Shown in pieces: positions 5,377 through 20,445 of a stretch of 64,000 bases of DNA. Each line of letters starts with the position of its first letter. Positions within the stretch are counted from its first letter, which is position 1. The stretch lies in the NCBI RefSeq assembly GCF_037023745.1, contig NZ_CP146101.1, forward strand, positions 3,030,001 through 3,094,000, in the 5' to 3' direction. The position numbers and the translations under genes are program-made. Below the pieces are notes generated by a model that saw only the letters and a list, made by a program, of their open reading frames with translations, made no database searches and was not told the origin of the DNA. This DNA comes from Streptomyces sp. SCSIO 30461 (GTDB lineage: Bacteria; Actinomycetota; Actinomycetes; Streptomycetales; Streptomycetaceae).

Positions 5377-6624
5377 GTGAGCACGTACCGTGACTTCGCC
5401 CACAGGGGCGCCGCCAGGGCCACCGCCCTGCGGACCGCCGGCACACGGGAGCGGCGCTCGCACCTCACCGCACCGCGCGTTCCCACCGTGGGGATCGACA
5501 TCGGCGGTACGAAGGTGATGGCCGGTGTCGTCGACGCCGACGGCGTCATCCTGGAGAAGGTGCGTACCGAGACCCCTGACAAGTCCAAGAGCCCCAAGGT
5601 GGTCGAGGACGTCATCGTCGAGCTGGTACTCGACCTCTCCGACCGCCACGACGTGCACGCCGTCGGCATCGGAGCGGCGGGCTGGGTGGACGCCGACCGT
5701 TCCAGGGTGCTCTTCGCGCCCCACCTCGCCTGGCGCAACGAACCCCTGCGCGACTCCCTGGAGAAGCGCCTCGTCGTCCCCGTCATGGTGGACAACGACG
5801 CCAACACCGCCGCCTGGGCGGAGTGGCGCTTCGGCGCCGGCCGAGGCGAGGACCATCTGGTCATGATCACGCTCGGTACCGGTATCGGAGGGGCGATCCT
5901 GGAGGGCGGGCAGGTCAAACGGGGCAAGTACGGGGTCGCCGGGGAGTTCGGCCATATGCAGGTCGTACCCGGCGGGCACCGCTGCCCCTGCGGCAACCGC
6001 GGTTGCTGGGAGCAGTACAGCTCCGGCAACGCGCTCGTGCGCGAGGCCCGCGAACTGGCCGCGGCCGACTCCCCGGTCGCCTACAACATCATCGAGCGGG
6101 TCAAGGGCAGCGTCCCCGACATCACCGGACCGCTGATCACCGAGCTCGCCCGAGAGGGCGACGCCATGTGCGTCGAGCTGCTCCAGGACATCGGTCAGTG
6201 GCTCGGCGTCGGCATCGCCAATCTCGCGGCGGCGCTCGATCCCTCCTGCTTCGTCATCGGCGGCGGTGTCAGCGCGGCCGACGATCTGCTGATCGGCCCC
6301 GCCCGGGACGCCTTCCGACGTCATCTCACCGGCCGCGGCTACCGGCCCGAAGCACGGATCGCCAAGGCCCAGCTCGGCCCGGACGCCGGGATGGTCGGCG
6401 CCGCCGACCTCGCCCGACTGATCGCCCGCCGCTTCCGGCGCGCCAACCGGCGCCGCGTCGAACGGCATGAGCGGTACGAGCGCTACGCCCAGGCACTGCG
6501 CAACCCCGGCGCGAGCAACGGCAACAGCAACAGCTACGGGGGCGCGAGCGGCGACATCGGCCGCACGGACGGCGCCGCCGACAGCGGTACCCCTCGCACC
6601 ACCCCTCAGGAACCCTCCTCATGA
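5377..6624 (+). CDS. ROK family sugar kinase (glucokinase-like)
   Basis: A 415-residue ROK protein. The ATP-binding motif DIGGTKVMAGV starts at residue 41, a catalytic DND lies at about 139-141, EFGH at 190-193, and the ROK zinc motif CPCGNRGCWEQ spans 203-213. These point to an ATP-dependent hexose kinase such as glucokinase. Compared with typical Streptomyces glucokinases (about 317 residues) it has about 35 extra N-terminal residues and an Arg-rich, then Asn/Ser/Gly-rich C-terminal tail of about 60 residues that looks disordered. The start is the GTG at 5377. Its stop overlaps the next start by 4 bp. It lacks a DNA-binding HTH, so it is an enzyme rather than a ROK repressor. Confidence 0.88.
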   Translation: MSTYRDFAHRGAARATALRTAGTRERRSHLTAPRVPTVGIDIGGTKVMAGVVDADGVILEKVRTETPDKSKSPKVVEDVIVELVLDLSDRHDVHAVGIGAAGWVDADRSRVLFAPHLAWRNEPLRDSLEKRLVVPVMVDNDANTAAWAEWRFGAGRGEDHLVMITLGTGIGGAILEGGQVKRGKYGVAGEFGHMQVVPGGHRCPCGNRGCWEQYSSGNALVREARELAAADSPVAYNIIERVKGSVPDITGPLITELAREGDAMCVELLQDIGQWLGVGIANLAAALDPSCFVIGGGVSAADDLLIGPARDAFRRHLTGRGYRPEARIAKAQLGPDAGMVGAADLARLIARRFRRANRRRVERHERYERYAQALRNPGASNGNSNSYGGASGDIGRTDGAADSGTPRTTPQEPSS

Positions 6625-7223
6625 CCCTGCCCCGACAGTCCGCACAGCACCCGGAGAGCGCGCACCCGGACGACGCCGGAAACGCCGTGCGTCCGCCGGA
6701 GGTTCGGCGGCACATGATCCTGCGCCGCTGTCTGACACTGCTGGTCATCGTGCTGCTCATCGGCATCCCGGCCGGATATCTGGTGATCTCCGCCGAACAG
6801 AGCCGGGACAGCGGCCGGGACAAGGAGCGCGAGTCGTCCGCGACCGGTCTGCGGGAGAGTTGGCCGTCCAAGATGAAGCGCCGGGTCTTCGAGGTGCCCA
6901 TCCCAGCGAAGTCCACCGAGGTCGCCTACTACGAGACCTCCAACTGGAAGTCGAGCCGGCTCTTCGTCACCTTCCGGACCACCGCAGTGGGCCTCGACCG
7001 CTTCCTCAACCGGGTCGGCACCACCCGGTCCGAACTGACGACCGGCGAAGTCACGATCAACGAGCGCGACGCTGCCACGGCGGGCTGGACCTTCGGTCCG
7101 GAGACCTACTGGTCGGGCACCACCCACTCGCAGCCGGACCCCCGGCCCACCCAGGACATCACGGTCGATCTGACCGATCCGTCATCACCCAGGGTCTTCG
7201 TCGTCTCGACCACCACTCCCTGA
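6621..7223 (+). CDS. Single-pass membrane protein of unknown function
   Basis: A 200-residue protein whose start overlaps the ROK kinase stop (ATGA), so translation is probably coupled. One transmembrane segment (LTLLVIVLLIGIPAGYLVI, about residues 38-56) follows a basic stretch, giving an N-in topology with an extracytoplasmic domain of about 140 residues. That domain has VPIPAKSTEVAYYETSNWKSS and a WTFGPETYWSG block, conserved in appearance but not recognised. No lipobox or catalytic motif is visible. The coupling suggests a role tied to the kinase or the DUF2254 protein, but this is inference. Confidence 0.75.
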   Translation: MTLPRQSAQHPESAHPDDAGNAVRPPEVRRHMILRRCLTLLVIVLLIGIPAGYLVISAEQSRDSGRDKERESSATGLRESWPSKMKRRVFEVPIPAKSTEVAYYETSNWKSSRLFVTFRTTAVGLDRFLNRVGTTRSELTTGEVTINERDAATAGWTFGPETYWSGTTHSQPDPRPTQDITVDLTDPSSPRVFVVSTTTP

Positions 7224-7324
7224 ACCCGCGACCCCGGCCACGGTCTCCCGACCGGGGCCAACGTCGGAGCCACGCCGCGGGATCGGCCTTGCCTGCGACT
7301 TCTCCCGAGCTCTACGGTCACGGC

Positions 7325-7774
7325 ATGCGAAGACGCCGTGACCAGTCCGGAGAACCATCGGCACCGCCAGATGCCTCGAACGCGATCGCGATCACCCTTC
7401 GGGAAGTGGTGGCGCTCGTGGAGACCTTCGAGTACGCCCATGCGCAGATCGCCATGCGGAGCGATGCCGACGACCACACCGTCGCGAAGGCCAGCGGTTC
7501 CCATCTGATCCCGGCCCTGTACGCGCGAGCCGGTTTCGCCGCCGGGAGGGAGAGCGATCGGATCCCCCTGCTCGTGAGCGAGCTGGGTTCGCTTGAGGCC
7601 GCTGTGCTCAACCTGGAGTCCTACGGGGGGCATGAGGCCGAGTTGTGCCTGGGCTATGGCATGCTCGACAGTCTGGGGAACCGCGAAGCCGGTGCCGGTC
7701 TCCTTCGCTCGGTGCACGGAATCCTGGCCTTCGCCGACGAGGCGGCGGACCCGGTCCAGGACGTCAGCGTCTGA
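7325..7774 (+). CDS. Hypothetical protein, helical
   Basis: A predicted 149-residue soluble, mostly helical protein with no motif I recognise. Codon use has the GC3 bias of the neighbours, which supports real coding. The ATG at 7325 is preceded by only weak purines (TCACGGC), so a leaderless or different start is possible. It stands 100 bp after the kinase-linked membrane protein. Confidence 0.5.
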   Translation: MRRRRDQSGEPSAPPDASNAIAITLREVVALVETFEYAHAQIAMRSDADDHTVAKASGSHLIPALYARAGFAAGRESDRIPLLVSELGSLEAAVLNLESYGGHEAELCLGYGMLDSLGNREAGAGLLRSVHGILAFADEAADPVQDVSV

Positions 7775-7871
7775 GTGCCGACTCCGCCGCGCCCATCGCC
7801 GCTTGAGCAACCTTCGCAGGCACCGGGCGGTCTTGCCGGATGCCGAGGCACCGCTGAGTGCCTGAGCGAGG

Positions 7872-8262
7872 ATGACGATGACGAATCCGAACACCATCGT
7901 GACGTGGGTGGACGCACGCGAGAGGCTGCCTCGGAGCGGTGCGCCGGTGGCGGCGGCGATCACGGGCCGGTACCCGGCTGGCGGCGCCGATCAGTCCCGT
8001 GGCGCGTTGGGGGGAGGAGTTCTGGCTGGTGAGGCCGATGTGTTTCACCACGCTGCACTTCAGCGAGGACGGGGCAGAACACCGGGACTGCTTCGTCGAC
8101 TCCGATGGGATCGTCCGTCTTCCCTACGGCCGTGGCGATGCGGAAACCGTGACCCACTGGGCCGAGCTGCCCACCCTTCCAGGCGGTACCACCCACGTCG
8201 TACTCGGAGAAGACGTGCCGTCAGCTCTCCGGAATGCATGGGACGCTCGTCGCCTCGCCTGA
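7872..8262 (+). pseudogene. WISV/DUF551-like small protein, frameshifted
   Basis: Two frames together encode one recognisable protein. The first (from ATG 7872) gives TIVTWVDARERLPRSGAPV, like the start of DUF551-type proteins. The second gives GEEFWLVRPMCFTTLHFSED through HWAELPTLPG to 8262. The frames join cleanly if one G is removed from the six-G run at 8009-8014. This is either a real single-base insertion inactivating the gene or a homopolymer sequencing error. Function of the family is unknown. Its 3' end overlaps the convergent WYL regulator by 42 bp. Confidence 0.6.
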
Positions 8263-9258
8263 GCCGATCTCCCGTACCGCGCAGTCGGATCCGTAGGCTT
8301 TGGCGAGTACGCGCACCACGGCGGCCATGGCCTGGCGCAGTTCGGCCGGCGCGACGACCTCTACGTCGACACCGAGCCGTAGCAACTCCCCGCAGGCGTG
8401 TTCGGTGCTCTCGATCGGGATGACCGCCTCGACCCATCCCTCGTCGTCGGCGGCGGTCGCGGTGGATGCGGCGGCTCTCACCACATCCGGGGGGACGTTG
8501 TCGGGCAGGCGTCGGCGTCCCCTCGGTGACAGGCGGATGGTGGCTGTACCGGTGTGGCGGCGTGCGTGGAAATCGTCGAGGTAGGTGCCCCAATGGGCGG
8601 CCAGGTCGAAGTCCCGCGGCCGGTCGAACCGCTCGTCGCTCAGCGCCGCATCGAGGACCTGGGTGACCCGATAGGTCGCGATCCGCTGCTTCACGGCGGC
8701 GACGAGGTACCAGATACCGGACTTGAGCACCAGGCCGTAGGGCCGAAGGCGGCGGTGCACTTCCTGCGGCGCGCGCCAGCGGCGGTAGCGCACGTCCACC
8801 GCACGCCGGGTGAGCACCGCGTCGACCAACACGGGCAGACACGGCGTCTGTTCGTGTTCGCGATACCAACCTGGAGCGTCCAGGTGGAACACCGCCGCGG
8901 TCCGCGCGGCCTCGTCGCGCAGCCCCGTCGGCAGAGCCGCCAACAGCTTCAGTCGTGCCGCTGTCACCTCAGCCGCGAGCCCCAGGTCGGCGGCGGGGCC
9001 CGGCAGCCCGGCGAAGAACAGCGCCCGTGCCTCGCCCTCGCTCATCCCGGTCAGGCGAGTGTGATAGCCGTCGACCAGCTGGTATCCGCCTCCGCGGCCC
9101 GGTTCCGCGTAGACCGGCACCCCGACGTCCTGCAGACGCGCCAAATCGCGATAAGCGGTGCGCACGGACACGCCGAGCTCGTCAGCGAGCCCTTGCGCGG
9201 ACATGCGGCCCCGGGATTGCAGCAACAGCAGCACCGACAGCAGTCGACCGGCAGACAT
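8221..9258 (-). CDS. YafY-type HTH/WYL-domain transcriptional regulator
   Basis: A 345-residue DeoR/YafY-like regulator. The N-terminal winged helix (RLLSVLLLLQSRGRMSAQGL, then VSVRTAYRDLARL, about residues 5-43) is followed by a GRGGGYQL wing and a C-terminal WYL ligand-sensing domain (about 120-210) with PYGLVLKSGIWYLVA. A longer reading from 9297 is possible, but the ATG at 9258 gives the usual family start. It is divergent from the NIPSNAP gene with a 128-bp spacer, the common arrangement of WYL regulators with their target, so it probably controls that gene and itself. Confidence 0.88.
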   Translation of the reverse strand: MSAGRLLSVLLLLQSRGRMSAQGLADELGVSVRTAYRDLARLQDVGVPVYAEPGRGGGYQLVDGYHTRLTGMSEGEARALFFAGLPGPAADLGLAAEVTAARLKLLAALPTGLRDEAARTAAVFHLDAPGWYREHEQTPCLPVLVDAVLTRRAVDVRYRRWRAPQEVHRRLRPYGLVLKSGIWYLVAAVKQRIATYRVTQVLDAALSDERFDRPRDFDLAAHWGTYLDDFHARRHTGTATIRLSPRGRRRLPDNVPPDVVRAAASTATAADDEGWVEAVIPIESTEHACGELLRLGVDVEVVAPAELRQAMAAVVRVLAKAYGSDCAVREIGSGEATSVPCIPES

Positions 9259-9386
9259 GGGCGCATTCTCCCAGGAAACCCTGACAGCACCTGACACATG
9301 GCTCGCCTACCGTCGGCTCGCACCCGGCACCCCGCCGAACGAGCCGGGACGACGCGTCCGCAGAAGAGGACCGAACAGGAGCTGCC

Positions 9387-10127
9387 ATGCCCACCGCCGA
9401 GCCTTTCGCACGCCCCGCCGTCATCGAGCTGCGCCAGTACACCTTGCGCTCCGGTCGGCGCGACGAGCTCATCGAGCTGTTCGACAAGGAGTTCGTCGAG
9501 ACCCAGGAAGGCGCGGGGATGGTCGTCATCGGCCAGTTCCGGGACCTCGACGACCCGGACCGCTTCGTCTGGCTTCGCGGGTTTCGGGACATGGAGGTAC
9601 GCCAACGCGCGCTGACAGCCTTCTACGGCGGCTCCGTCTGGGCCGAGCACGGCCCTCAGGCCAACGCCACCATGGTCGACTCCGACGATGTGCTCCTTCT
9701 TCGTCCCCTCTCGGACGCGAGCGGGTTCGCCGTCCTGCCGTCCCAGCGGCCTCGCTTCGGCGCTCGGGCACCGCAGCGATTCGTGTCCGCCACTGTGTGG
9801 TCATTCCCTCCGGGGCGGCACGACGGCATCGCACTGATCAGGGACGGCCTCCTCCCCGTGCTCCGGGATACAGGCCCCACCCCGCTCGCCGTCCTCACCA
9901 CCGAGACAGCGCACAACACATTCCCCAGGCTGCCGATTCGTACCGCGGAGAACGTCGCCGCGATCTTCACCGCGTACTCCGACGAGAGCCACCACCGGCA
10001 TCATCTCGCCCGAGTACAGGCCCATCCCCTCGTGCGGGACGAGATCCTCCCGGGCATCGCGCGGGAACAGACAGCGGCCCCCCTGACGCTGCGGCTGGCG
10101 CCCACCGGCCGTTCGCTCGTCTCCTGA
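9387..10127 (+). CDS. NIPSNAP family protein
   Basis: A 246-residue protein with two dimeric alpha/beta-barrel (NIPSNAP) repeats. The N-terminal one has VIELRQYTLRSGRRDELIEL (about residues 12-31), the family signature, and the second ends with HHLARVQAHPLVRDE. The family's biochemical role is unsettled in bacteria; small ferredoxin-like barrels often bind hydrophobic ligands or act as monooxygenases. AGGAGC precedes the ATG at 9387. It is divergent from the WYL regulator, its likely controller. Confidence 0.85.
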   Translation: MPTAEPFARPAVIELRQYTLRSGRRDELIELFDKEFVETQEGAGMVVIGQFRDLDDPDRFVWLRGFRDMEVRQRALTAFYGGSVWAEHGPQANATMVDSDDVLLLRPLSDASGFAVLPSQRPRFGARAPQRFVSATVWSFPPGRHDGIALIRDGLLPVLRDTGPTPLAVLTTETAHNTFPRLPIRTAENVAAIFTAYSDESHHRHHLARVQAHPLVRDEILPGIAREQTAAPLTLRLAPTGRSLVS

Positions 10128-10289
10128 CCGGGCTCGTCTGCCGTGGTCGATGAAGGCGCTGCTCGGGAGAGCAGGAGCGTGGCGAGTTGTTCCAGCGGCT
10201 CCGCGACGCCGAGGCCGTGCGTGCCGATGTACGCGCCGCAGCGGAGGCGCCCGGCACCCGGCGGCGCCGCCCCGGCCCGCACCTGCCTG

Positions 10290-10839
10290 AGTGGACGCGT
10301 GTGTGCGGGACTTGATCGCCGGCAGCGGCCGAGTGGTGCGGGCCGGCCAGGTGGTCCACCAGGTCGTCCAGCTCGGTTCGGACTCCGGCCGAAACCGCGA
10401 CGCCGAGCGTCCCGGCAAGTCCGAGGAAGGAGTCGATGTCGCCTTGGGCCGGACCGGACCAGGTGGGGAGTGTGCCTTCGTCGTCGCCGCTGGTGGCCGC
10501 ATGGAGCCGGGCCGGTGCGGCGGCGTAGTCGACCACTCAGCCCTCGCGGGGCGGCTGGTGGTCCACGTACTCAAGGACCAGGACACGTTCGCCCGGATCG
10601 GTGCCGACGAGCATCGGCACCACGGGCGGGTCGACCCGGGACGCGAGCTTCAGCGCCGCCACTTCGCGGGCGTACCTCTCGGCCGCCTCCGGAGCGTCGA
10701 TGAGCTGCTTGACCACCACGGGTGTGCCGGACAGCTCGGCCCGCCTACGCGAGATCGCGGGCTGCTTCCCCGGCGGCGAGCCCGACGAGGCGAGCCCAGC
10801 TCGGACCGCAGTGCGTCTCCGAATGGCAGTCGTGACCAC
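10290..10839 (-). pseudogene. Aminoglycoside phosphotransferase family pseudogene
   Basis: From 10839 the frame encodes an APH N-lobe: TPVVVKQLIDAPEAAERYAR, EVAALKLASRVDPPVVP and RVLVLEYVDHQPP. A TGA at 10537-10539 interrupts it, and the same frame continues with VVDYAAAPARLHAAT, normal for the family. In relatives this position is commonly Trp, so a TGG to TGA change is the simplest explanation. Further on, after DDLVDHLAGPHHS, the expected catalytic HGD...N loop is absent, so there is also a deletion or frameshift. The original 3' end is not definable. The gene is almost certainly non-functional. Confidence 0.65.
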
Positions 10840-11132
10840 ATGGGCTCATGCTCGCACGTTCCGCGTCCGTGAAGCCGGGTGACGCAGGGCGCCACCACGA
10901 CGTCCCAGACCCGCGGCATGGTTGTGAGGAGGATCACGACCCGCCGGCCATATGGCGTCGCGGTGAACCGGCTTCGGGGACGAGGGGTCGGATGACCTGT
11001 GATCTCGCCCTTTCTGCAAAGAGATCGATGGCATCGCGCCCGCCGATGTGTGCGGGATCTGTGTGCGGCGTGCTACCCGGTGTTCCAGGGGGCGTCGTGC
11101 CGCGACCGCCTGTCAGCCGTTAGCATCACGGC
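10840..11132. other. Spacer without a supported gene
   Basis: About 290 bp between the phosphotransferase pseudogene and the first His-rich membrane protein. Only short overlapping frames with no recognisable product are present. A TAGCAT at 11121-11126, 6 nt before the ATG at 11133, could be a -10 box for a leaderless transcript, but no convincing -35 is visible. Confidence 0.4.
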
Positions 11133-11609
11133 ATGGTTACGGCCTGGTCTTTCTCCAGCGTGCTGCGGGTCCGCTCTTCAGCGGGGCCGCTGCGTCTGCT
11201 GTGGCTGGCCGCGCTACTGCTCGGCATCCTGTTCACGCATGGCGCGACGGCGGAGAGCTCGGCGAGCCATGGGGTGGCCGGTGTGACCACGCACATGCAT
11301 GCATCCGCCGGGATTGACGATGGTCACGTGGGCGGGGCCGGGCACGGTGACGATGCCGCGCACTCCTCGCCCGAAGCCGTGGCCGCCGAAGACCGCCATG
11401 ACGGTCACGGCTCTTCACATCCGGCTCAGGCGTGCGTCTCCGGCCAGCCCCAGCAGGGCCTGGATCTGGCCGCTCCCTGTCTGCACCCACTGAGTCGGGT
11501 GGCGCCCAAGCGTGCCTACGCAGGCGGGAAGTCCTCAGTCCCGCCCCGGCCCGAGTCGCCCATTCCTCCATCGGCGGGTCCCACGGACTCGGTAGTTCAG
11601 CAGGTCTAG
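11133..11609 (+). CDS. Small His-rich secreted/membrane protein (DUF6153-like)
   Basis: A 158-residue protein with one hydrophobic segment (LRLLWLAALLLGILFTHGATA, about residues 20-40), which could be a signal peptide or anchor. A long His/Asp/Gly-rich region follows (HMHASAGIDDGHVGG, GHGDDAAH, EDRHDGHGSSH), then a conserved-looking CVSGQPQQGLDLAAPCLHP segment with two Cys. This resembles the Streptomyces DUF6153 family, suspected but not shown to bind metal ions outside the membrane. No strong ribosome binding site precedes the ATG, so it may be translated from a leaderless transcript. Confidence 0.6.
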   Translation: MVTAWSFSSVLRVRSSAGPLRLLWLAALLLGILFTHGATAESSASHGVAGVTTHMHASAGIDDGHVGGAGHGDDAAHSSPEAVAAEDRHDGHGSSHPAQACVSGQPQQGLDLAAPCLHPLSRVAPKRAYAGGKSSVPPRPESPIPPSAGPTDSVVQQV

Positions 11610-11829: not shown

Positions 11830-12285
11830 ATGCCGTTCCATCCTCTTCCTCACCTTCACGGCAGCCGCCGTGCTGCCCATTCCTCATGGCTGTTCCGTCT
11901 GATTTCCTTCGTCCTGGTTGGGCTGCTGATGGGCGCATCCGCCTGCTCTGTCATGCATGACAGCGGCAGCCGTGCGCACGGAGGGACGCCAGCGTCGTCC
12001 GGCCATCTCCCGCAGGCGGCAGAAGCTGTGGAGCGGGAGATGGCCCACGGGCCGCATCCACACCCCGGCTCTGCCTGCGCGCCGTACGTGGTCGGCCAGG
12101 TGCTGCCGAAAGCCGGGCATCTGGTCACGGGCGGGGTGGCCTTGGCTGCCTTCGCCGCGGTAGCGGCTGGAGTGACTGCTGCCGTGGCTGTCTCGCTCCA
12201 GGCGGCGCGGCGCGACGGCGGTAGATCCCGGATACGGCTTTCGGGCCGGGCCGGACTCTCCGTCGTCTGTCGGTGGCGGATCTAG
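11830..12285 (+). CDS. Small two-TM His-containing membrane protein
   Basis: A 151-residue protein after a clear GGAGG ribosome site. An N-terminal hydrophobic segment (WLFRLISFVLVGLLMGASAC, about residues 20-39) could be a signal anchor; it ends in a Cys, but the surroundings are not a good lipobox. A loop with HDSGSRAHGG and AHGPHPHPGSACAPYVVGQVLPKAGH follows, and then a second hydrophobic helix (VTGGVALAAFAAVAAGVTAAVAV). It resembles the preceding His-rich gene and lies 130 bp before the PLP enzyme gene. Together they suggest a metal-handling theme. Function unknown. Confidence 0.55.
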   Translation: MPFHPLPHLHGSRRAAHSSWLFRLISFVLVGLLMGASACSVMHDSGSRAHGGTPASSGHLPQAAEAVEREMAHGPHPHPGSACAPYVVGQVLPKAGHLVTGGVALAAFAAVAAGVTAAVAVSLQAARRDGGRSRIRLSGRAGLSVVCRWRI

Positions 12286-12414: not shown

Positions 12415-13605
12415 ATGCACCCGCACACCACCACTGACATCACACCCCCCACCCGCTCCGCCCTTTCCGGGCTCGTCGGCAACACCCCTGTCCTCCGGAT
12501 TTCCGAGCCTCTCTCCCCGGCTGATCGCGGATTCTGGGCAAAACTGGAGGGCTTCAACCCCGGCGGCATCAAGGACCGCCCTGGCCTCCACATGGTCGAG
12601 CAGGCCCGTGCCCGCGGCGACCTTCGCCCTGGTGACCGAATCATCGAGTCCACCAGCGGCACCCTCGGCCTCGGCCTTGCCCTGGCGGGGATGGTTTACG
12701 GCCACCCGGTCACCCTGGTCACCGACCCAGGGCTCGAGCGGTCCATGACGCAGCTGCTGACCGCACATGGCGCGCAGGTCAATGTGGTCTCCGAACCCCA
12801 CCCCACCGGGGGCTGGCAGCAGGCACGGCGCGACCGCGTGGCCCAGCTCATGGCGCAGCACCCCGGCTCGTGGTGCCCGGACCAGTACAACAACCCCGAC
12901 AACACCACTGCCTACACTCCGCTCGCGCTGGAGCTGGCCTCCGAACTGGGCCCCATCGACGTACTGGTGTGCAGCGTAGGCACCGGGGGGCACTCCGCGG
13001 GCGTATCCCGCGTCCTGCAGCACCTCTACCCGGAGATGCAGCTCGTCGGCGTCGACACCACCGGCTCGACCATCTTCGGCCAGCCCGCCCGTACCCGGTT
13101 GATGCGCGGCCTGGGCTCAAGCATCTACCCCCGCAACGTCGCCTACGACAACTTCAGCGAGGTCCACTGGGTCGCCCCCCACGAGGCCGTGTGGACCTGC
13201 CGCCAACTCGCCGCATGCCACTACGCCACCGGCGGGTGGAGCGTCGGCGCAGTCGCCCTGGTCGCTGGGTGGCTGGCTCGCACCCTGCCCGCGGACACAA
13301 AGATCGCGGCGATCTTCCCGGACGGCCCGCAGCGTTACCTGAGCACGGTCTACGACGACGACTACTGCGCCGCCCACGGACTGCTCGACTCCCCACCCGC
13401 ACCGGAACCGGAGGTGATCGGCAGCCTGGGCGAGAAGGAGGTCACCCGCTGGACCCGGTGCACCACTGTCGTCGACCCGCTCACCCTGAACGACCCGGCG
13501 CAGGACACCAAGGTGGTCGATCCGCTCGCCGAATCCGACGCGGAACCTGACGTGTCGTTCGGGACCGAGGACATCGAATCCGACCTGCTGGAGGAGGACC
13601 GGTGA
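12415..13605 (+). CDS. PLP-dependent cysteine synthase family protein
   Basis: A 396-residue fold-type II PLP enzyme like cysteine synthase, O-phosphoserine sulfhydrylase and SbnA. The PLP lysine is K53 in [11 protein letters not shown], the substrate loop ESTSGTLG is at about 78-85, and the phosphate-binding glycine loop GTGGHSAG is at about 189-196. The core ends near residue 330; an acidic tail of about 60 residues rich in Asp, Glu and Pro follows, not usual for housekeeping CysK/CysM. The stop overlaps the MFS start (GTGA). With an MFS exporter and a possible serine kinase (DUF1015) next to it, a specialised amino-acid product is more likely than bulk cysteine; this is inference. Confidence 0.85.
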
Positions 13606-14909
13606 AGGGGACCCTCGCCCAGGTGCGCTCCTACGAGCGCAGTGTCCAGCTGTTGATGGTGAACCAGTTCACCATCAACCTCGGTTTCTACATGCTGATG
13701 CCCTATCTGGCAGCACACCTGGCTGGCCCCCTTGGTCTCGCGGGCTGGCTCGTCGGGCTCATCCTCGGCGTACGCAACTTCAGCCAGCAGGGCATGTTCC
13801 TGGTCGGCGGCACTCTGGCCGACCGGCTCGGCTACAAGCCGATGATCATCGCGGGGCTTGTGCTGCGTATCGTCGGCTTCGCGACCCTCGGGCTCGTCGA
13901 CTCCGTACCCGCCCTGCTCGCAGCGTCGGCCGCGACAGGCTTGGCCGGTGCGCTGTTCAACCCGGCCTCCCGGGCCTACCTGGCCTTGGACGCCGGCGAC
14001 CGCCGGGTCGAGGCGTTCGCGCTGTTCAACGTCTTCTACCAGGCGGGCATCCTGCTGGGCCCGCTGGTGGGCATGGTGCTGACCGGCGTCGACTTCCGCG
14101 TCACCTGCCTGACCGCAGCCGGAATCTTCGCCGTGCTGAGCATCGTGCAGATCCGGGCCCTGCCCGCCCGCCGGGCCGACGACACGCAGGAGCAGAAGGA
14201 CGGTCGGCGCGAGAGCGTACTCGCCGAGTGGCGCGGCATCATCGCCAACCGGGCGTTCCTGCTCTTCTCCGTGGCCATGGTCGGCTCGTATGTCATGTCC
14301 TTCCAGGTCTATCTCGCGCTCCCGCTGGAGGTGCGACGCCTTGGCGGGGAAGGACAGTTCGGCACAGCTGCGGTCGCGGTGCTCTTCGCCGTCTCCGGAC
14401 TGAGCACGATCCTCTTCCAGACGAAGGTCACCGCCTGGTGCAAGGCCCGTATGGAACCGGGCCGGGCGCTCACCTGGGGGCTGCTCACCATGGGCGTGGC
14501 GTTCGTACCCCTGCTTGCGGCCACGGCGGTCCCCGTGCCGGACGGCGGAGTGGGACTGTGGCTGCTCGCGGCCGTGCCACCTGCGCTCTCCGCACTGCTC
14601 CTCGCGCTGGGGACGATGATCGCCTATCCATTCGAAATGGACACCATCGTCCGGCTCTCCGGTGACCGCCTCGTCGCCACCCACTACGGGCTGTACAACA
14701 CCATCTGCGGCGTCGGTATCACCCTCGGAAACCTGCTCACCGGCGCGGCTCTCGACGCCGCCCGTGCGGCGGGCGTCTCCGCGCTCCCGTGGATCGCGCT
14801 CCTCGCGCTCGGCCTGGTCTGCGCCGCCGCTCTGTACAGGCTGCACCGCACCGGTCGCCTGGCGCCGCCCCCCGTGCGCGGGGCGCAGCCCGAGCCCGTC
14901 ACAGCCTGA
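13602..14909 (+). CDS. MFS transporter
   Basis: A 435-residue major facilitator with about 12 hydrophobic helices. The loop 2-3 motif reads [15 protein letters not shown], a good match to the MFS GxLaDrxGrk signature, and the protein aligns by eye with EntS/SbnD- and multidrug-type exporters. The GTG start at 13602 overlaps the PLP enzyme stop by 4 bp, so the two are translationally coupled. Export of the product of the PLP enzyme is the likely role, though import cannot be excluded. The DUF1015 gene follows after 82 bp with its own AGGAG. Confidence 0.85.
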
Positions 14910-14991
14910 CCAACAACTCCGCGCTGGAGGGCGGGCGAGTTGCCTCTCGTCCGCCCCTCCAGCCGACCGTGCCCACCTCCAGGAGCGATCG

Positions 14992-16209
14992 ATGCCGACC
15001 CCTGCTCTGCCGACCCCAACCGGCCTGCAGTTGCGACCCTTCCAGGCCGTGCGCTACGACCCGGCCCAGGCCGGTGACCTGTCCCACGTGATCTGCCCGC
15101 CGTACGACGACATCGGCCCGGCCCGCGCACGCTCCCTGCGCGTAAAGCCCCACCACATCGCGCGGTTGCTTCACGCCACCGACCCGCAGACGGCCGCCGG
15201 TCAGCTGGACCGCTGGCAGCAGCGTGGCGTACTGGTCCGCGACACCCGACCCGCTCTCTACGTCTACCAACAGCAGCGCGGCGCCCGGATCCTGCAACGG
15301 GGACTGATCGGTGAACTGCATCTGGACCGCGGTCCCGCCACCCCTGTGCTTCCCCACGAGGACGTACAACCCCACGTGGTCAGGCAGCGCGCCGGACTCA
15401 TGTCCGCTCTGCGCGCCCAGCTGGAACCACTGCTGCTGACCTACCGGTCCACAGAATCGATGACGGCGCAGATCGTCGAACACGTCACCCGGCGCCCACC
15501 GGTGGCTGTCGCCCGCGCCGGCACGATCACCCACATGCTGTGGGCCAGCACTGCCCCGGACGAACAACTCCTCATCACGGCCGGCTTGTCCCGGTACCGG
15601 GCCCTCATCGCCGACGGGCACCACCGCCACGCCGCCGGCCTGCAACTGAGTGAAGGAGAGGACGCAAGTCCTTGGCAGGGCAGCCTCGCCCTGCTGGTCG
15701 ACGCCACCACCCATCCTCTGCGGTTGTCGGCGATCCACCGGGTGATGCCCGGCCTGGAGCCTGCGAAGGCCGCGGTGGCCGCCGCTGACGTGGCGCACGT
15801 GCGGCAACTGTCCGGGCCGCGCCTTCCGGGCCCCGGGGAACTGGTGCTCGCCGGAGCCGGCCGGGCGTGGGCCATCTCCGACCCCGAGCCGGAGGCGCTG
15901 CGGGAGGCTCTGACCGGCCGCCCGCCGCAATGGCATCAACTGGCAGCGGCGGTCACCGACCACCTTCTGCTGGGCCGTGCCTGGTCGGTTCCCGACCTGT
16001 CGGGTGCCATACGTCATGTGCACGATGCAGAACAGGCTGTGGCTGCTGTTGCCTCACCGGGCAGTGGAACTGCCGTCCTGTTGCCCGCGGTCACCGAGAA
16101 CACGGTGTGGGACATGGTCGGCGCAGGAGTGCGGCTGCCCCGCAAGACGACCTCGTTCGGTCCCAAACCAGCCGCCGGGCTGGTATTGCGCGTCATCGAC
16201 GCGCCATAA
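14992..16209 (+). CDS. DUF1015 family protein (candidate free-serine kinase)
   Basis: A 405-residue DUF1015 protein. The N-terminal family block RPFQAVRYDPAQA...VICPPYDDI lies at about 15-41 and the central IADGHHRHAAG at about 206-216. The DGHHR motif resembles that of ParB-like free-serine kinases (SerK, SbnI), and I recall reports that some DUF1015 proteins phosphorylate serine; neither point is verified here. Such a kinase would supply O-phosphoserine to the upstream PLP enzyme. The start is the ATG at 14992 with AGGAG 6 nt upstream. Its TAA stop is formed partly by the inserted MITE: TA from the target site and A from the element. Confidence 0.8.
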   Translation: MPTPALPTPTGLQLRPFQAVRYDPAQAGDLSHVICPPYDDIGPARARSLRVKPHHIARLLHATDPQTAAGQLDRWQQRGVLVRDTRPALYVYQQQRGARILQRGLIGELHLDRGPATPVLPHEDVQPHVVRQRAGLMSALRAQLEPLLLTYRSTESMTAQIVEHVTRRPPVAVARAGTITHMLWASTAPDEQLLITAGLSRYRALIADGHHRHAAGLQLSEGEDASPWQGSLALLVDATTHPLRLSAIHRVMPGLEPAKAAVAAADVAHVRQLSGPRLPGPGELVLAGAGRAWAISDPEPEALREALTGRPPQWHQLAAAVTDHLLLGRAWSVPDLSGAIRHVHDAEQAVAAVASPGSGTAVLLPAVTENTVWDMVGAGVRLPRKTTSFGPKPAAGLVLRVIDAP

Positions 16210-16533
16210 GGGCTGTCCCGTGATCCGCGGTGGATCAGAGCGCGGCGTCAGGTGTATGGGGTCTCCGCCAGCCCCTGGGGCCGAGGGGTATGGGGTCTCC
16301 CCCGGCCCTTGGGGCCGAGGTGTATGAAGTCTCCCGCCGGCCCTTGGGGCCGAGGGGTATGGGGTCTCCCCCGGCCCTTGGGGCCGAGGGGACGCAACGC
16401 AAGGCGGAGGGTCGCCCTCATACTGGGTGTATTCGGGTGATTCGGCAACGCAGCGTGGGGGCACCTCCCGGCGAAGCCGGGGGGAGTGCCGTAGCTGTCG
16501 TCGCGCGCCCGCCGGGGATTACGGGACAGCCCT
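16209..16533. mobile_element. MITE-like element, 325 bp, IS5/IS427-type ends
   Basis: The ends are 18-bp inverted repeats, AGGGCTGTCCCGTGATCC at the left and its complement with one mismatch at the right, flanked by TA at 16207-16208 and 16534-16535. A TA duplication and ends starting GGGCTGTCCC fit the IS427 group of the IS5 family. No transposase is encoded, so it is a non-autonomous element. Inside are four tandem 34-bp repeats and a hairpin near 16460-16490. It separates DUF1015 from the last gene of the cluster and may act as a terminator. Confidence 0.75.
16254..16390. repeat. Four tandem repeats of 34-35 bp
   Basis: Units start at 16254, 16288, 16322 and 16357 with GTATGGGGTCTC (GTATGAAGTCTC in the third) and end with GGGGCCGAGG. 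They differ at only a few positions, are adjacent without spacers, and lie inside the MITE. They are not CRISPR-like. Confidence 0.85.
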
Positions 16534-16587
16534 TAGCCGACCACACCACACTCACCGTCATCCATTTCCGGTAAGGAGCAGTTTCCG

Positions 16588-17328
16588 TTGTCCCATTCCC
16601 AGCTCGCCGACCGCCCCGCAGGCTCCGATGGTCAGCCTGCGCCCAACGCCCCCGGACCAGGCCGTGCCGCCATCCGGAGAGCGCGCACCCGCAGGGCCCA
16701 GAAGACCTCTCTGCTGGCGCGATACGTTGGTTACGTCGGCTACTTCGTCGGCGCCGGACTCATCAGCGGCGCGGTGGTTCACCACCCGCTGGACCCGGCC
16801 CGCTACACGCGGATCGCCGCGTGCGGCGTTCTGGTCTTCCTCGCTGCCACCGTGCTCAACGAGTTCTTCCTCGCACGCGACAAGCCTGGCCTGTCAAGGA
16901 TGCTGCTGGTCATCGGCGCCTCACTGCTGCTCTCGTTCGGCATCGGCATGCTCAGTGGCGGCCTCCAGCACTTCGAGGACTTCCCCGCACGTGGCGCCGT
17001 GCTCGTACCCCTGGGGATTACGGTCTCTTTCATCGCCTATGCGGCGAAGGACGCCCAGACCTCCTGGCGGCGCATCTTCAGTCCCGTGGGCCTGGCGGTC
17101 CTGCTGACCGCGCTGATCAGCTTCGCCGGTCTGCGCTACGTGGCTGCCGGCATGGACGAACCGGCGGAAGGCGGCGGACACAGCCACGGAAGCGCGGAGC
17201 AAGAGGAAGCGGGGCAGGAGCAGCGGCACGAACCGGCCCCCGCGGCCCCCGCATCCCAGCCCGGAACCCCTCCCAGGGGCAGCGGTGCGGTCAAGGGATC
17301 CGGCCACGGCGAGGGTCACGCTCACTGA
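16588..17328 (+). CDS. Five-TM membrane protein with His-rich tail
   Basis: A 246-residue protein. After a basic N-terminus there are about five hydrophobic helices (about 46-64, 76-95, 104-124, 136-153, 165-185). The C-terminal tail of about 55 residues is hydrophilic and contains GGGHSHG, RHEP and a terminal GHGEGHAH, which look like metal-binding clusters. No family recognised. The start is a TTG at 16588 with AAGGAG 9 nt upstream. It belongs by position to the PLP-MFS-DUF1015 cluster but is cut off from it by the MITE. A role in metal sensing or transport is a guess from the tail. Confidence 0.75.
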   Translation: MSHSQLADRPAGSDGQPAPNAPGPGRAAIRRARTRRAQKTSLLARYVGYVGYFVGAGLISGAVVHHPLDPARYTRIAACGVLVFLAATVLNEFFLARDKPGLSRMLLVIGASLLLSFGIGMLSGGLQHFEDFPARGAVLVPLGITVSFIAYAAKDAQTSWRRIFSPVGLAVLLTALISFAGLRYVAAGMDEPAEGGGHSHGSAEQEEAGQEQRHEPAPAAPASQPGTPPRGSGAVKGSGHGEGHAH

Positions 17329-17686: not shown

Positions 17687-18748
17687 TCAGCGTGTCTGCG
17701 GTAGCTGGTCCTGGATGTCTCTCCCTGCGGATAGCGCGGTGGTGTCCCGGGTGAAGTGAGTTTCCGGGCCGAAGCGTTGCCGGTAGGCCGAGGGGGTGAG
17801 TCCCGTTTCTCGGCGTAGGAGTGTTCGGAGGTTGGCGGGGGTGCCGAGTCCGGCGTTGCGGGCGACGGCGTCGATACGGGTGTCTCCGCGTTCGAGGAGG
17901 CGGCGGGCGAGGGTGACGCGTTGCGCGGTCAGCCATGCGAGGGGTGTGGTGCCGAGTTGGGTGCGGAAGCGGCGGTGCAGGGTGGTGGTACTGACGGCCG
18001 CCTCGGTTGCGAGGTCCGCGATGGTGAGGGGGGTGTCGAGTCGCTCCTGCGCCCAGGCCAGCAGGGGGGCGAGGGATTCGTCGGGCAGGTCGGGTAAGGG
18101 GCGTTCGATGAACTGCTTCTGTCCGCCGTCGCGGTGGGCGGGGAAGACGAGTCGGCGGCTGATGGAGTTGGCGGTCTCCGCGCCGTGGTCGCGGCGGATG
18201 ATGTGCAGGCCGAGGTCGAGTGCGGCGGCGCTGCCCGCGGAGGTGAGGATGGTGCCGTCGTCGACGAAGAGGACGTCGGGTTCGACGCGGACTGCGGGGT
18301 AGTGGGCGCGCAGGAGGTCCGTGCACTGCCAGTGCGTGGTGGCCCGGCGGCCGTCGAGCACGCCGGCCTGGGCCAGGGCGAACGCGCCGGTGCAGAAGGA
18401 GACCAGCCGGGCGCCCCGCTGATGGGCGCGGCGTATGGCGTCCAGTACGGCGGGATGGCGCGGCTGGCTGACGTCAGGCCTGCTCGGGAGGATCAGGGTG
18501 TCGGCGGCGTCGGCGGCTTCGAGGCACGCTGCTTCGGTCAGAGTGAAGAAGCGGTCGCGCATGACCGTGCGGTCCTGGGGTGTGCAGAGCGTGAAGTTGT
18601 AGAGGTCACGGCCGAGCTCGGGTCGGGGCAGCCCGAACAGTTCGGTGGCGCAGCCGAGTTCGAAGGGGTTGGTGTCCTCTTCCACGATGACTGTCATCTG
18701 GTGTGGCTGGAGCCCTCGGGAAGCGTCGTGGAAGGATTCTTGCGTCAT
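17687..18748 (-). CDS. GlxA family transcriptional regulator (DJ-1/PfpI + AraC HTH)
   Basis: A 353-residue regulator. Residues about 15-185 form a DJ-1/PfpI-like domain, with VSFCTGAFALAQAGVLDGRRA around the nucleophile-elbow position. Residues about 235-335 are an AraC-type double HTH (TIADLATEAAVSTTTLHRRF, then IDAVARNAGLGTPANLRTLL and TGLTPSAYRQRF). Such proteins activate nearby catabolic or stress genes in response to an unknown ligand. It is divergent from the repeat-containing secreted protein across a 140-bp spacer and is therefore a candidate controller of it. Confidence 0.9.
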   Translation of the reverse strand: MTQESFHDASRGLQPHQMTVIVEEDTNPFELGCATELFGLPRPELGRDLYNFTLCTPQDRTVMRDRFFTLTEAACLEAADAADTLILPSRPDVSQPRHPAVLDAIRRAHQRGARLVSFCTGAFALAQAGVLDGRRATTHWQCTDLLRAHYPAVRVEPDVLFVDDGTILTSAGSAAALDLGLHIIRRDHGAETANSISRRLVFPAHRDGGQKQFIERPLPDLPDESLAPLLAWAQERLDTPLTIADLATEAAVSTTTLHRRFRTQLGTTPLAWLTAQRVTLARRLLERGDTRIDAVARNAGLGTPANLRTLLRRETGLTPSAYRQRFGPETHFTRDTTALSAGRDIQDQLPQTR

Positions 18749-18829
18749 ACGCCACTTCTACCACTCACACCCGGCGATGCCGGTGTCGAAGGATGAGGCC
18801 TGGTGAGCGGCGGTGGGCCTGCGCGTCCA

Positions 18830-18853
18830 TGGACGGCATGCCCCTGCCGTCCA
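18830..18853 (+). promoter_or_regulatory. Leader hairpin before the secreted repeat protein
   Basis: TGGACGGCA and its exact complement, with a 6-nt loop, form a 9-bp stem 35-58 nt upstream of the ATG at 18889. It leaves the GAGAGGAG ribosome site free. It may be a leader element or an operator-like palindrome; evidence is structural only. Confidence 0.3.
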
Positions 18854-18888
18854 AACCTGTATGGGTTTCGGTGAGAGGAGTATGCGCA

Positions 18889-20445
18889 ATGCGCCTGTTT
18901 TCTTGGCGTACTTCCGTGGTGAGAGGAACCGTGCCGGGTGCGCGGGAGGAAACGAGGAGCGTAAGGGGCTCCGTGCCGTTGGGGCGACGATGGCGGGTAC
19001 GGTTGACCGCACTCTTGGTCACCCTGCCGAGTGCGGTCGTGACGCCGCTGCTCACGGCACAGCCGGCTGCCGCAGCGACGACCGGTAGTACGGTCTGTTT
19101 GCGGTCGGCGGACGGTGTCTACCGCTGGGATGGTGGTACGTCCTGGACGCAGATCAGCGGGCCCGGAACAGCCGACCAGATCTACGGAGGCGGGGCGGGT
19201 CTTCTCCGGGCCGCTCCGGACGGCAGTGGTGTCTACCGCTATCAGGGGTCCGGGCAGAACTGGCAGCGGATCGGTACCGCCGGCCCGGGCTCCCAGTGGG
19301 TGGTCACGGACAATGCCGTCTTCGGGCGGTCACCCGACGGTGTCTACCGCTGGGATGGTGGTACGTCCTGGACGCAGATCAGCGGGCCCGGAACAGCCGA
19401 CCAGATCTACGGAGGCGGGGCGGGTCTTCTCCGGGCCGCTCCGGACGGCAGTGGTGTCTACCGCTATCAGGGGTCCGGGCAGAACTGGCAGCGGATCGGT
19501 ACCGCCGGCCCGGGCTCCCAGTGGGTGGTCACGGACAATGCCGTCTTCGGGCGGTCACCCGACGGTGTCTACCGCTGGAATGGTGGTACGTCCTGGACGC
19601 AGATCAGCGGGCCCGGAACAGCCGACCAGATCTACGGAGGCGGGGCGGGTCTTCTCCGGGCCGCTCCGGACGGCAGTGGTGTCTACCGCTATCAGGGGTC
19701 CGGGCAGAACTGGCAGCGGATCGGTACCGCCGGCCCGGGCTCCCAGTGGGTGGTCACGGACAATGCCGTCTTCGGGCGGTCACCCGACGGTGTCTACCGC
19801 TGGAACGGTGGTACGTCCTGGACGCAGATCAGCGGGCCCGGAACAGCCGACCAGATCGTGCCCTGCGCCGCCGTCAACACGGCGGTCGGCTGGACCACTT
19901 ACTCCGCCGACAGCGACGAAGGCAAAGAAGCTCTCGAGGTATGCGCGGGTGAAGTGTTCCCGGGGATTATCTGCACCATGACCTACTCACCCCAGAGCTA
20001 TCAGACCTTTCCAGGGGAAGAACGCCCTGTCGGAGACAGGGTCTTCAATTACACTGCGCAAACCGTGACTCACACCCTGACCTGGTCGGATACCGTGGGG
20101 AGATCAGACACACTCGAGGTGAGCGCATCCACGAAAGCCACCATCTGGGAAGTGGCTGAAGTAGGAGTGAGCGCGACTTACAGTAAGACTTTGAGTAAGT
20201 CGAGTACCGTTTCGCAGACCGAAAGCCTGCCAGTTTCAGGTTGCAGCGTGGGGTGGCTGGCCCGTTCTGCGGAGATGGACACTGCCACAGGGGACATTCA
20301 TGTGCATTTCGCCAAGGGAAATCGCCTGTACGGCCACCGGGACTTCATGATCACCAACGCTGCGTTCACGGCACCGACCGGGAACGGTTCCGTCGTCGCC
20401 CGTTCTCGCCCCATGACCGCGTCTGAAAGCACCTCGTGCTCTTGA
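18889..20445 (+). CDS. Secreted propeller-repeat protein with aerolysin-like C-terminus
   Basis: A 518-residue predicted secreted protein. The ATG at 18889 has GAGAGGAG 8 nt upstream. A long basic N-region precedes a hydrophobic core (about 38-58) and an AxA-type cleavage site near residue 62. Residues 75-323 hold three complete near-identical 75-residue repeats plus a partial fourth. Each is two half-repeats (DGVYRWDGGTSWTQISG and SGVYRYQGSGQNWQRIG) like tectonin/lectin beta-propeller blades. Residues 324-518 are Ser/Thr-rich with alternating beta segments (VTHTLTWSDTVGRSDTLEVS, YSKTLSKSSTVSQTES), resembling aerolysin/ETX-MTX2 pore-forming domains. A lectin-guided pore-forming toxin is plausible, but the fold call is by eye. 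Confidence 0.7.
   Translation: MRLFSWRTSVVRGTVPGAREETRSVRGSVPLGRRWRVRLTALLVTLPSAVVTPLLTAQPAAAATTGSTVCLRSADGVYRWDGGTSWTQISGPGTADQIYGGGAGLLRAAPDGSGVYRYQGSGQNWQRIGTAGPGSQWVVTDNAVFGRSPDGVYRWDGGTSWTQISGPGTADQIYGGGAGLLRAAPDGSGVYRYQGSGQNWQRIGTAGPGSQWVVTDNAVFGRSPDGVYRWNGGTSWTQISGPGTADQIYGGGAGLLRAAPDGSGVYRYQGSGQNWQRIGTAGPGSQWVVTDNAVFGRSPDGVYRWNGGTSWTQISGPGTADQIVPCAAVNTAVGWTTYSADSDEGKEALEVCAGEVFPGIICTMTYSPQSYQTFPGEERPVGDRVFNYTAQTVTHTLTWSDTVGRSDTLEVSASTKATIWEVAEVGVSATYSKTLSKSSTVSQTESLPVSGCSVGWLARSAEMDTATGDIHVHFAKGNRLYGHRDFMITNAAFTAPTGNGSVVARSRPMTASESTSCS
19111..19857 (+). repeat. Three near-identical 225-bp tandem repeats plus a partial fourth
   Basis: Units begin at 19111, 19336, 19561 and 19786, exactly 225 bp apart; the fourth stops after 72 bp. 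Differences are confined to one or two bases, mainly at the GAT/AAT/AAC codon after CCGCTGG. This near-identity at DNA level implies recent duplication or ongoing homogenisation, and copy number could vary between strains or be mis-assembled from short reads. Confidence 0.95.

Follow-up and report, generated by a model that had tools for sequence, protein, structure and literature searches.

A predicted metal-linked O-phosphoserine gene module in Streptomyces with a DUF1015 protein resembling free serine kinases

The closest precedent found for the locus described here is the copper-regulated lpqS, cysK2 and Rv0849 of Mycobacterium tuberculosis, rather than the staphyloferrin B (sbn) genes of Staphylococcus. 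These mycobacterial genes presumably adjoin one another in that order, and CysK2 is reportedly an O-phosphoserine-dependent S-sulfocysteine synthase. Table 2 of one study (PMC10470581) assigns all three genes to the copper repressor RicR, and another study (PMC9048740) uses cysK2 as a copper-responsive gene in BCG and proposes that S-sulfocysteine serves as a redox buffer and a precursor of mycothiol. Our locus lies in a stretch of 64,000 nucleotides (the window; positions 3,030,001 to 3,094,000 of contig NZ_CP146101.1) from Streptomyces sp. SCSIO 30461, a genome of one 8.05 Mb contig whose proteins have Streptomyces proteins as their named closest homologues. It contains genes for a pyridoxal 5'-phosphate (PLP)-dependent enzyme, a major facilitator superfamily (MFS) transporter, a DUF1015 protein and a His-tailed membrane protein. 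An earlier note on this DNA had proposed that they use O-phosphoserine to make and export a small metal-binding amino acid, such as a diaminopropionate derivative, under metal control.

We consider it fairly probable that the locus is a metal-linked (mainly copper) O-phosphoserine module that corresponds in streptomycetes to lpqS, cysK2 and Rv0849 of M. tuberculosis, with a supply enzyme added. This reading is based on the gene set, its conservation, the predicted fold, the motifs and the linkage. The DUF1015 protein would provide O-phosphoserine, from which the CysK2-type enzyme would eliminate phosphate before adding a nucleophile; judging from the family, thiosulfate is the likeliest, which would give S-sulfocysteine. 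The coupled MFS protein would then carry the product across the membrane, and small His-rich membrane proteins may handle or sense the metal. The PLP enzyme gene (12415..13605; PF00291, 172 bits) overlaps by 4 bases at its stop with the GTG start of the MFS gene (13602..14909; PF07690, 115.6 bits), a putative exporter, whose stop is followed after 82 bases by the ATG of the DUF1015 gene (14992..16209; PF06245, 169 bits). The His-tailed gene, with a TTG start, follows at 16588..17328. All four genes on the forward strand, the overlap, the gap and a DGHHR motif in the DUF1015 protein are where the earlier note had placed them.

The modelled DUF1015 protein resembles the free serine kinases SerK and SbnI in both fold and catalytic motifs, and we predict that it either phosphorylates free serine or interconverts serine and O-phosphoserine. 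Its predicted structure (model m720e5b46f93f; predicted local distance difference test (pLDDT) 93) matched nine PDB entries at E<=0.001, each of them either a free serine kinase of the SerK/SbnI kind or 1vk1, a homologue of SerK. The match to the SerK/SbnI arrangement runs almost to the C-terminus, beyond the ParB core and with the C-terminal part included. Motif comparison and profile alignment gave a DUF1015 counterpart for SerK Glu30 (changed in the E30A and E30Q entries), for DGHHR and for the C-terminal KTT. These are the conserved H122-E123, equated with Glu30 by motif and order, D208GHHR212, which is invariant across the 29 DUF1015 sequences compared, and P383xKxT387. A profile search with the protein returned only SerK-type matches (E 0.0066-0.047), with no SbnI among them. 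The earlier note had expected a likeness to both kinases and had named a fold lacking a kinase-like active site as the opposing case; what was found is a SerK-like fold carrying the motifs, with both kinases matched in fold and SerK in its catalytic motifs. The family is common, being present in 145 of 198 sampled Actinomycetota genomes.

The PLP-dependent beta-replacement enzyme is, from its sequence, probably of the CysK2 type and O-phosphoserine dependent. SbnA is its best NCBIfam family (TIGR03945) and its best PDB match, but its score of 244.8 bits falls short of the 349.95 set for the equivalog, and some close homologues bear the name CysK2 or S-sulfo-L-cysteine synthase (3-phospho-L-serine-dependent). 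These names are the sources' own, and many read only PLP-dependent cysteine synthase family. The parallel with SbnA drawn in the earlier note is not borne out as it stood. Arg132, Tyr152 and Ser185 of SbnA are described (PMC12414870) as responsible for selective O-phosphoserine binding. Two of the three are kept here, as R138 and Y158, and Ser185 is replaced by glycine (G189); each of these residues is identical in the 120 best listed homologues.

The gene set recurs in the same genome. At C1:4894163-4897915 a second set encodes CysK2, MFS and DUF1015 proteins 88, 88 and 60% identical to those of the window, and within about 7 kb of it lie a DUF305 gene, a BlaI/M56 pair, a His-tailed paralogue (77% identical over its first part) and a homologue (34%) of the window gene at 11133. 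Here BlaI, M56 and DUF305 correspond to annotated pFRL3 proteins at 70-71% identity; other gene labels in unannotated loci were assigned by eye unless a family is named. A third DUF1015 copy in this genome has no cluster gene within the 18 kb retrieved. CysK2 homologues (E<=1e-110) occur in 63 of 101 Streptomyces genomes, and an MFS homologue adjoins CysK2 in all 29 loci of one series (L013-L041). Window-type DUF1015 (E<=1e-95) was found at 11 places in 10 of 392 Streptomyces genomes, where at most four candidates were scored per genome and some places may be missed; one genome is represented by locus L004, which contains L072 unchanged. At all 11 places it directly follows CysK2-MFS. Because of this adjacency and the second set in the same genome, the gene set is more than a chance arrangement. 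Distant DUF1015 proteins (mostly 43-49% identical) are widespread, with a match at E<=1e-50 in 93 of 101 Streptomyces genomes. As a separate observation, three loci (L112 in G069, L113 in G067 and L114 in G058) carry a more distant CysK2 homologue (56-58%) and, in the same gene row but separated from it by another gene, an MFS protein 44-46% identical to that of the window. Neighbours in L112 encode an ATP-grasp ligase, a DUF364 protein (putative heavy-metal chelation), an enolase-superfamily protein, a methyltransferase and a peptide-binding ATP-binding cassette protein, and the row is possibly an unstudied dipeptide-like metabolite cluster.

The phosphorylated serine pathway begins with SerA, and its SerC makes O-phosphoserine. 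In three relatives SerA stands in the DUF1015 slot after the MFS gene, namely L082 (121 bases away), plasmid pFRL3 of Streptomyces sp. FR1 (about 330 bases, annotated serA) and L081 (an N-terminal fragment). In the 44 loci where an MFS gene and 3.8 kb or more of downstream sequence were available, DUF1015 is present in 14 (many of them chosen for carrying it), SerA in three and neither in 27, and none has both. Only one of 101 Streptomyces genomes (G096) holds a second SerA of >80% identity, and this is the SerA in the MFS slot; weaker second matches (57-68%) in six other genomes lie away from CysK2 places. SerC (NF003764) scored above cut-off in 22 of the 198 Actinomycetota genomes, 16 of which also hold DUF1015; two matches below cut-off (G479, G520), neither near DUF1015, were excluded. 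In nine of the 16 it lies 5' of DUF1015 on the same strand within 7.1 kb, with 5, 20, 23 and 68 bases between the matches (G413, G474, G447 and G476) or 1.4, 1.5, 2.1, 3.6 and 7.1 kb (G403, G509, G478, G499 and G489). In G403 SerC comes first, then a SerA-like gene, whose best family is PGDH at 230 bits (under the cut-off of 454), and then DUF1015. Through the CysK2-MFS adjacency, the SerA exchange and SerC just 5' of DUF1015, the O-phosphoserine part of the earlier proposal is well supported by computation. Another hydroxy-amino-acid context was seen on a Monoglobus pectinilyticus plasmid (L234, 3107-7927), where the genes after DUF1015 encode homoserine dehydrogenase, homoserine kinase and aspartate kinase.

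The link to metals is supported by relatives of the locus. A named metal gene occurs in 10 of 12 annotated plasmid regions round CysK2, which were hand-picked for variety and not at random (three for several CysK2 in the record, one via a DUF1015 match) from 40 listed of 69 records. The S. longwoodensis region holds DUF1015 together with a metal-sensitive regulator, a P-type ATPase and an HMA protein, and that of R. opacus pROB01 a multicopper oxidase, CopC and CopD. The others are from M. gilvum, R. pyridinivorans, K. purpeofusca, Streptomyces sp. CdTB01, G. amicalis, N. farcinica, M. avium pMAH135 and M. paragordonae; the two regions with no named metal gene are pFRL3 (BlaI/M56/DUF305 only) and NBC_01001. 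The metal is not always copper, as the cation diffusion facilitator and ArsR/SmtB types of K. purpeofusca indicate. A broad set of copper-type markers was detected in 13 of 30 clusters vs 0 of 20 control stretches (p=0.0006), using stretches of 14-21 kb, with each marker's own source locus excluded for that marker and controls at arbitrary positions in 20 genomes, 2 of these outside the test genomes. The earlier idea of metal control thus finds support in the copper and metal neighbours of relatives, but none in the genes of the window themselves.

Several results weigh against the module reading. The window holds none of the copper markers of this comparison, no copper-repressor palindrome was recognised upstream when the alignment was inspected by eye, and strict copper genes occur in only 5 of 30 clusters vs 0 of 20 controls (p=0.075). 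DUF1015 is dispensable, standing at only 3 of the 25 CysK2 places of >=80% identity in the 101-genome sample; three CysK2-bearing genomes of family f3 gave no DUF1015 match, and 2 of the 11 window-type copies look broken (G057 and G281, loci L099 and L107, with separate matches). SerC and DUF1015 lie on different contigs in 7 of the 16 genomes holding both, and direct inspection of 20 DUF1015 loci showed SerC in two. Searched as a single sequence, DUF1015 had no relative in the PDB at E<=1, and the fold proves neither direction nor substrate. In the relevant section of a nucleotide-binding survey (PMC12704722) a DUF1015 fusion was among 50 selected proteins and no DUF1015 protein is named among the 11 binders, the section being silent on its purification.

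S-sulfocysteine, the simplest product by analogy with the family, would have close to an even chance, a chelating amino acid is doubtful, and the remaining probability falls to products from other nucleophiles. In the chelator case, the CysK2-type enzyme would join O-phosphoserine to an amino acid by SbnA chemistry, and the MFS protein would export a copper- or metal-binding aminopolycarboxylate or diaminopropionate derivative. The SbnA matches of the enzyme and its R138 and Y158 argue for this, as do two rows near copper genes in which genes for an ornithine cyclodeaminase, a decarboxylase and a multidrug and toxin extrusion (MATE) exporter come after that of a CysK2 homologue: M. avium pMAH135 (L241, 10010-15501) and L175 (G538, 6086-11194), each possibly an SbnA/SbnB-like pathway in a copper island. 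However, the best family of the L175 cyclodeaminase, SbnB, scores only 94 bits, far under its cut-off of 327, Ser185 of SbnA is a glycine in the window enzyme, and the window has no homologue of that cyclodeaminase or decarboxylase, with no tblastn match to the cyclodeaminases of the two relatives. In agreement with the earlier remark that the cluster lacks an SbnB-like dehydrogenase, the genome has a single PF02423 (SbnB-type superfamily) gene, which lies 1.35 Mb away at C1:1690999-1691889. A diaminopropionate derivative, weakly favoured by the genes of the pMAH135 and L175 relatives, is therefore only one option for the window, given this distance, the SbnA score below cut-off and the CysK2 names of homologues.

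The direction of the DUF1015 reaction could also be the reverse. The protein would then mainly convert O-phosphoserine to serine in place of a phosphoserine phosphatase, and here limit or recycle O-phosphoserine. Its position after SerC in nine genomes fits this, and in L159, where it follows SerC and a SerA-like gene, dephosphorylation would be the remaining step of serine synthesis; but the CysK2 cluster has a likely consumer of O-phosphoserine, and a supplier, SerA, fills the DUF1015 slot in relatives, which makes this reading unlikely. It is more improbable still that DUF1015 is a nucleotide-binding regulator and not an enzyme. Many proteins use the ParB-CTPase fold as a switch, and the 2025 survey (PMC12704722) includes DUF1015 fusions among the proteins of this fold, but no helix-turn-helix or other DNA-binding family was found in the protein (Pfam, NCBIfam), the SerK/SbnI arrangement continues nearly to its end and the SerK motifs are invariant. 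Most CysK2-MFS loci lack DUF1015, as would be expected of unrelated neighbours, but that reading is hardly credible because of the conservation, with adjacency at every window-type place and a second such cluster in the genome.

The remaining features flank the three core genes. Upstream on the forward strand lies a gene for a small His-rich secreted or membrane protein (11133..11609; 11 His) that is weakly DUF6153-like (PF19650, E=0.0042, 18.3 bits vs the cut-off of 27.7, thus below it); in 16 of 21 loci (L013-L033) a homologue of it lies upstream of CysK2. The next forward-strand gene (11830..12285; 11 His) encodes a small His-rich membrane protein that occupies the place LpqS has in mycobacteria. 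In 21 of 39 loci a C-terminal pattern search detected an open reading frame (ORF) whose product has a similar C-terminus, lying 55-208 bases ahead of CysK2, two or three of these genes being doubtful, and the window protein is 16-28% identical to ORFs preceding CysK2 in Mycobacteriales plasmids and genomes of family f3, part of which share a C-terminal GRxxL pattern. The His-tailed gene encodes a multi-pass membrane protein with no Pfam family above cut-off. In L005, L099 and L103 it belongs to the set of these close relatives, since its homologue begins 46-62 bases past the DUF1015 match. In the window this neighbour, correctly noted before, is nevertheless split off from DUF1015 by an insert resembling a miniature inverted-repeat transposable element (16207..16535). 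The insert has 329 bases, 27-nt inverted ends that are 89% complementary and internal repeats of 34-35 bases, and 87 stretches across the genome match it in whole or in part. Further along, an ORF at 18703-20445 contains several near-identical tandem repeats (YRW[DN]GGTSWTQISGPGTADQ...) and perhaps encodes a secreted repeat protein.

Pfam gives the common DUF1015 family no function, and the main gain of this analysis is a concrete, testable one. Because the fold, the catalytic motifs and three linkages (CysK2, SerC and the SerA exchange) converge on O-phosphoserine, it could be tested by one enzyme assay. If the module reading is true, it would explain how CysK2 gets its substrate on the spot, and it bears on why actinobacterial copper regulons hold a cysteine-synthase-like gene. 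More tentatively, and with the balance of probability against it, DUF1015 may form a large second family of enzymes, either free-serine kinases or O-phosphoserine/serine converters, that, in copper islands, feeds a CysK2-MFS pair making and secreting an O-phosphoserine-derived extracellular copper buffer. DUF1015 and CysK2-MFS would then constitute a minimal three-gene metal-protection metabolite pathway.

Compared with described systems, DUF1015 has its predicted fold, the (P)HE glutamate, DGHHR and the C-terminal KTT in common with SerK, the free serine kinase of Thermococcus, and the fold in common with SbnI. It is longer, with 405 residues vs about 240-254, an extra N-terminal part and inserts, and an identity of 10-16% in structural alignment. 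The staphyloferrin B genes sbnA, sbnB, sbnI and sbnD share with the window, as the earlier note proposed, a functional set of O-phosphoserine supplier, PLP beta-replacement enzyme and MFS protein; unlike them, the window has no SbnB-type gene nearby and its enzyme scores below the SbnA cut-off. With the CysK2 S-sulfocysteine synthase the enzyme shares the name given to some of its close homologues. The RicR regulon of M. tuberculosis (lpqS, cysK2, Rv0849 and mmcO) resembles the window in having a CysK2-type enzyme and then an MFS protein, with a small His-rich membrane protein before them, and relatives of the window set extend this likeness with a multicopper oxidase, a copper ATPase or CsoR-type regulators nearby. 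Relative to lpqS, cysK2 and Rv0849, the DUF1015 protein and the His-tailed membrane protein are the additions of Streptomyces.

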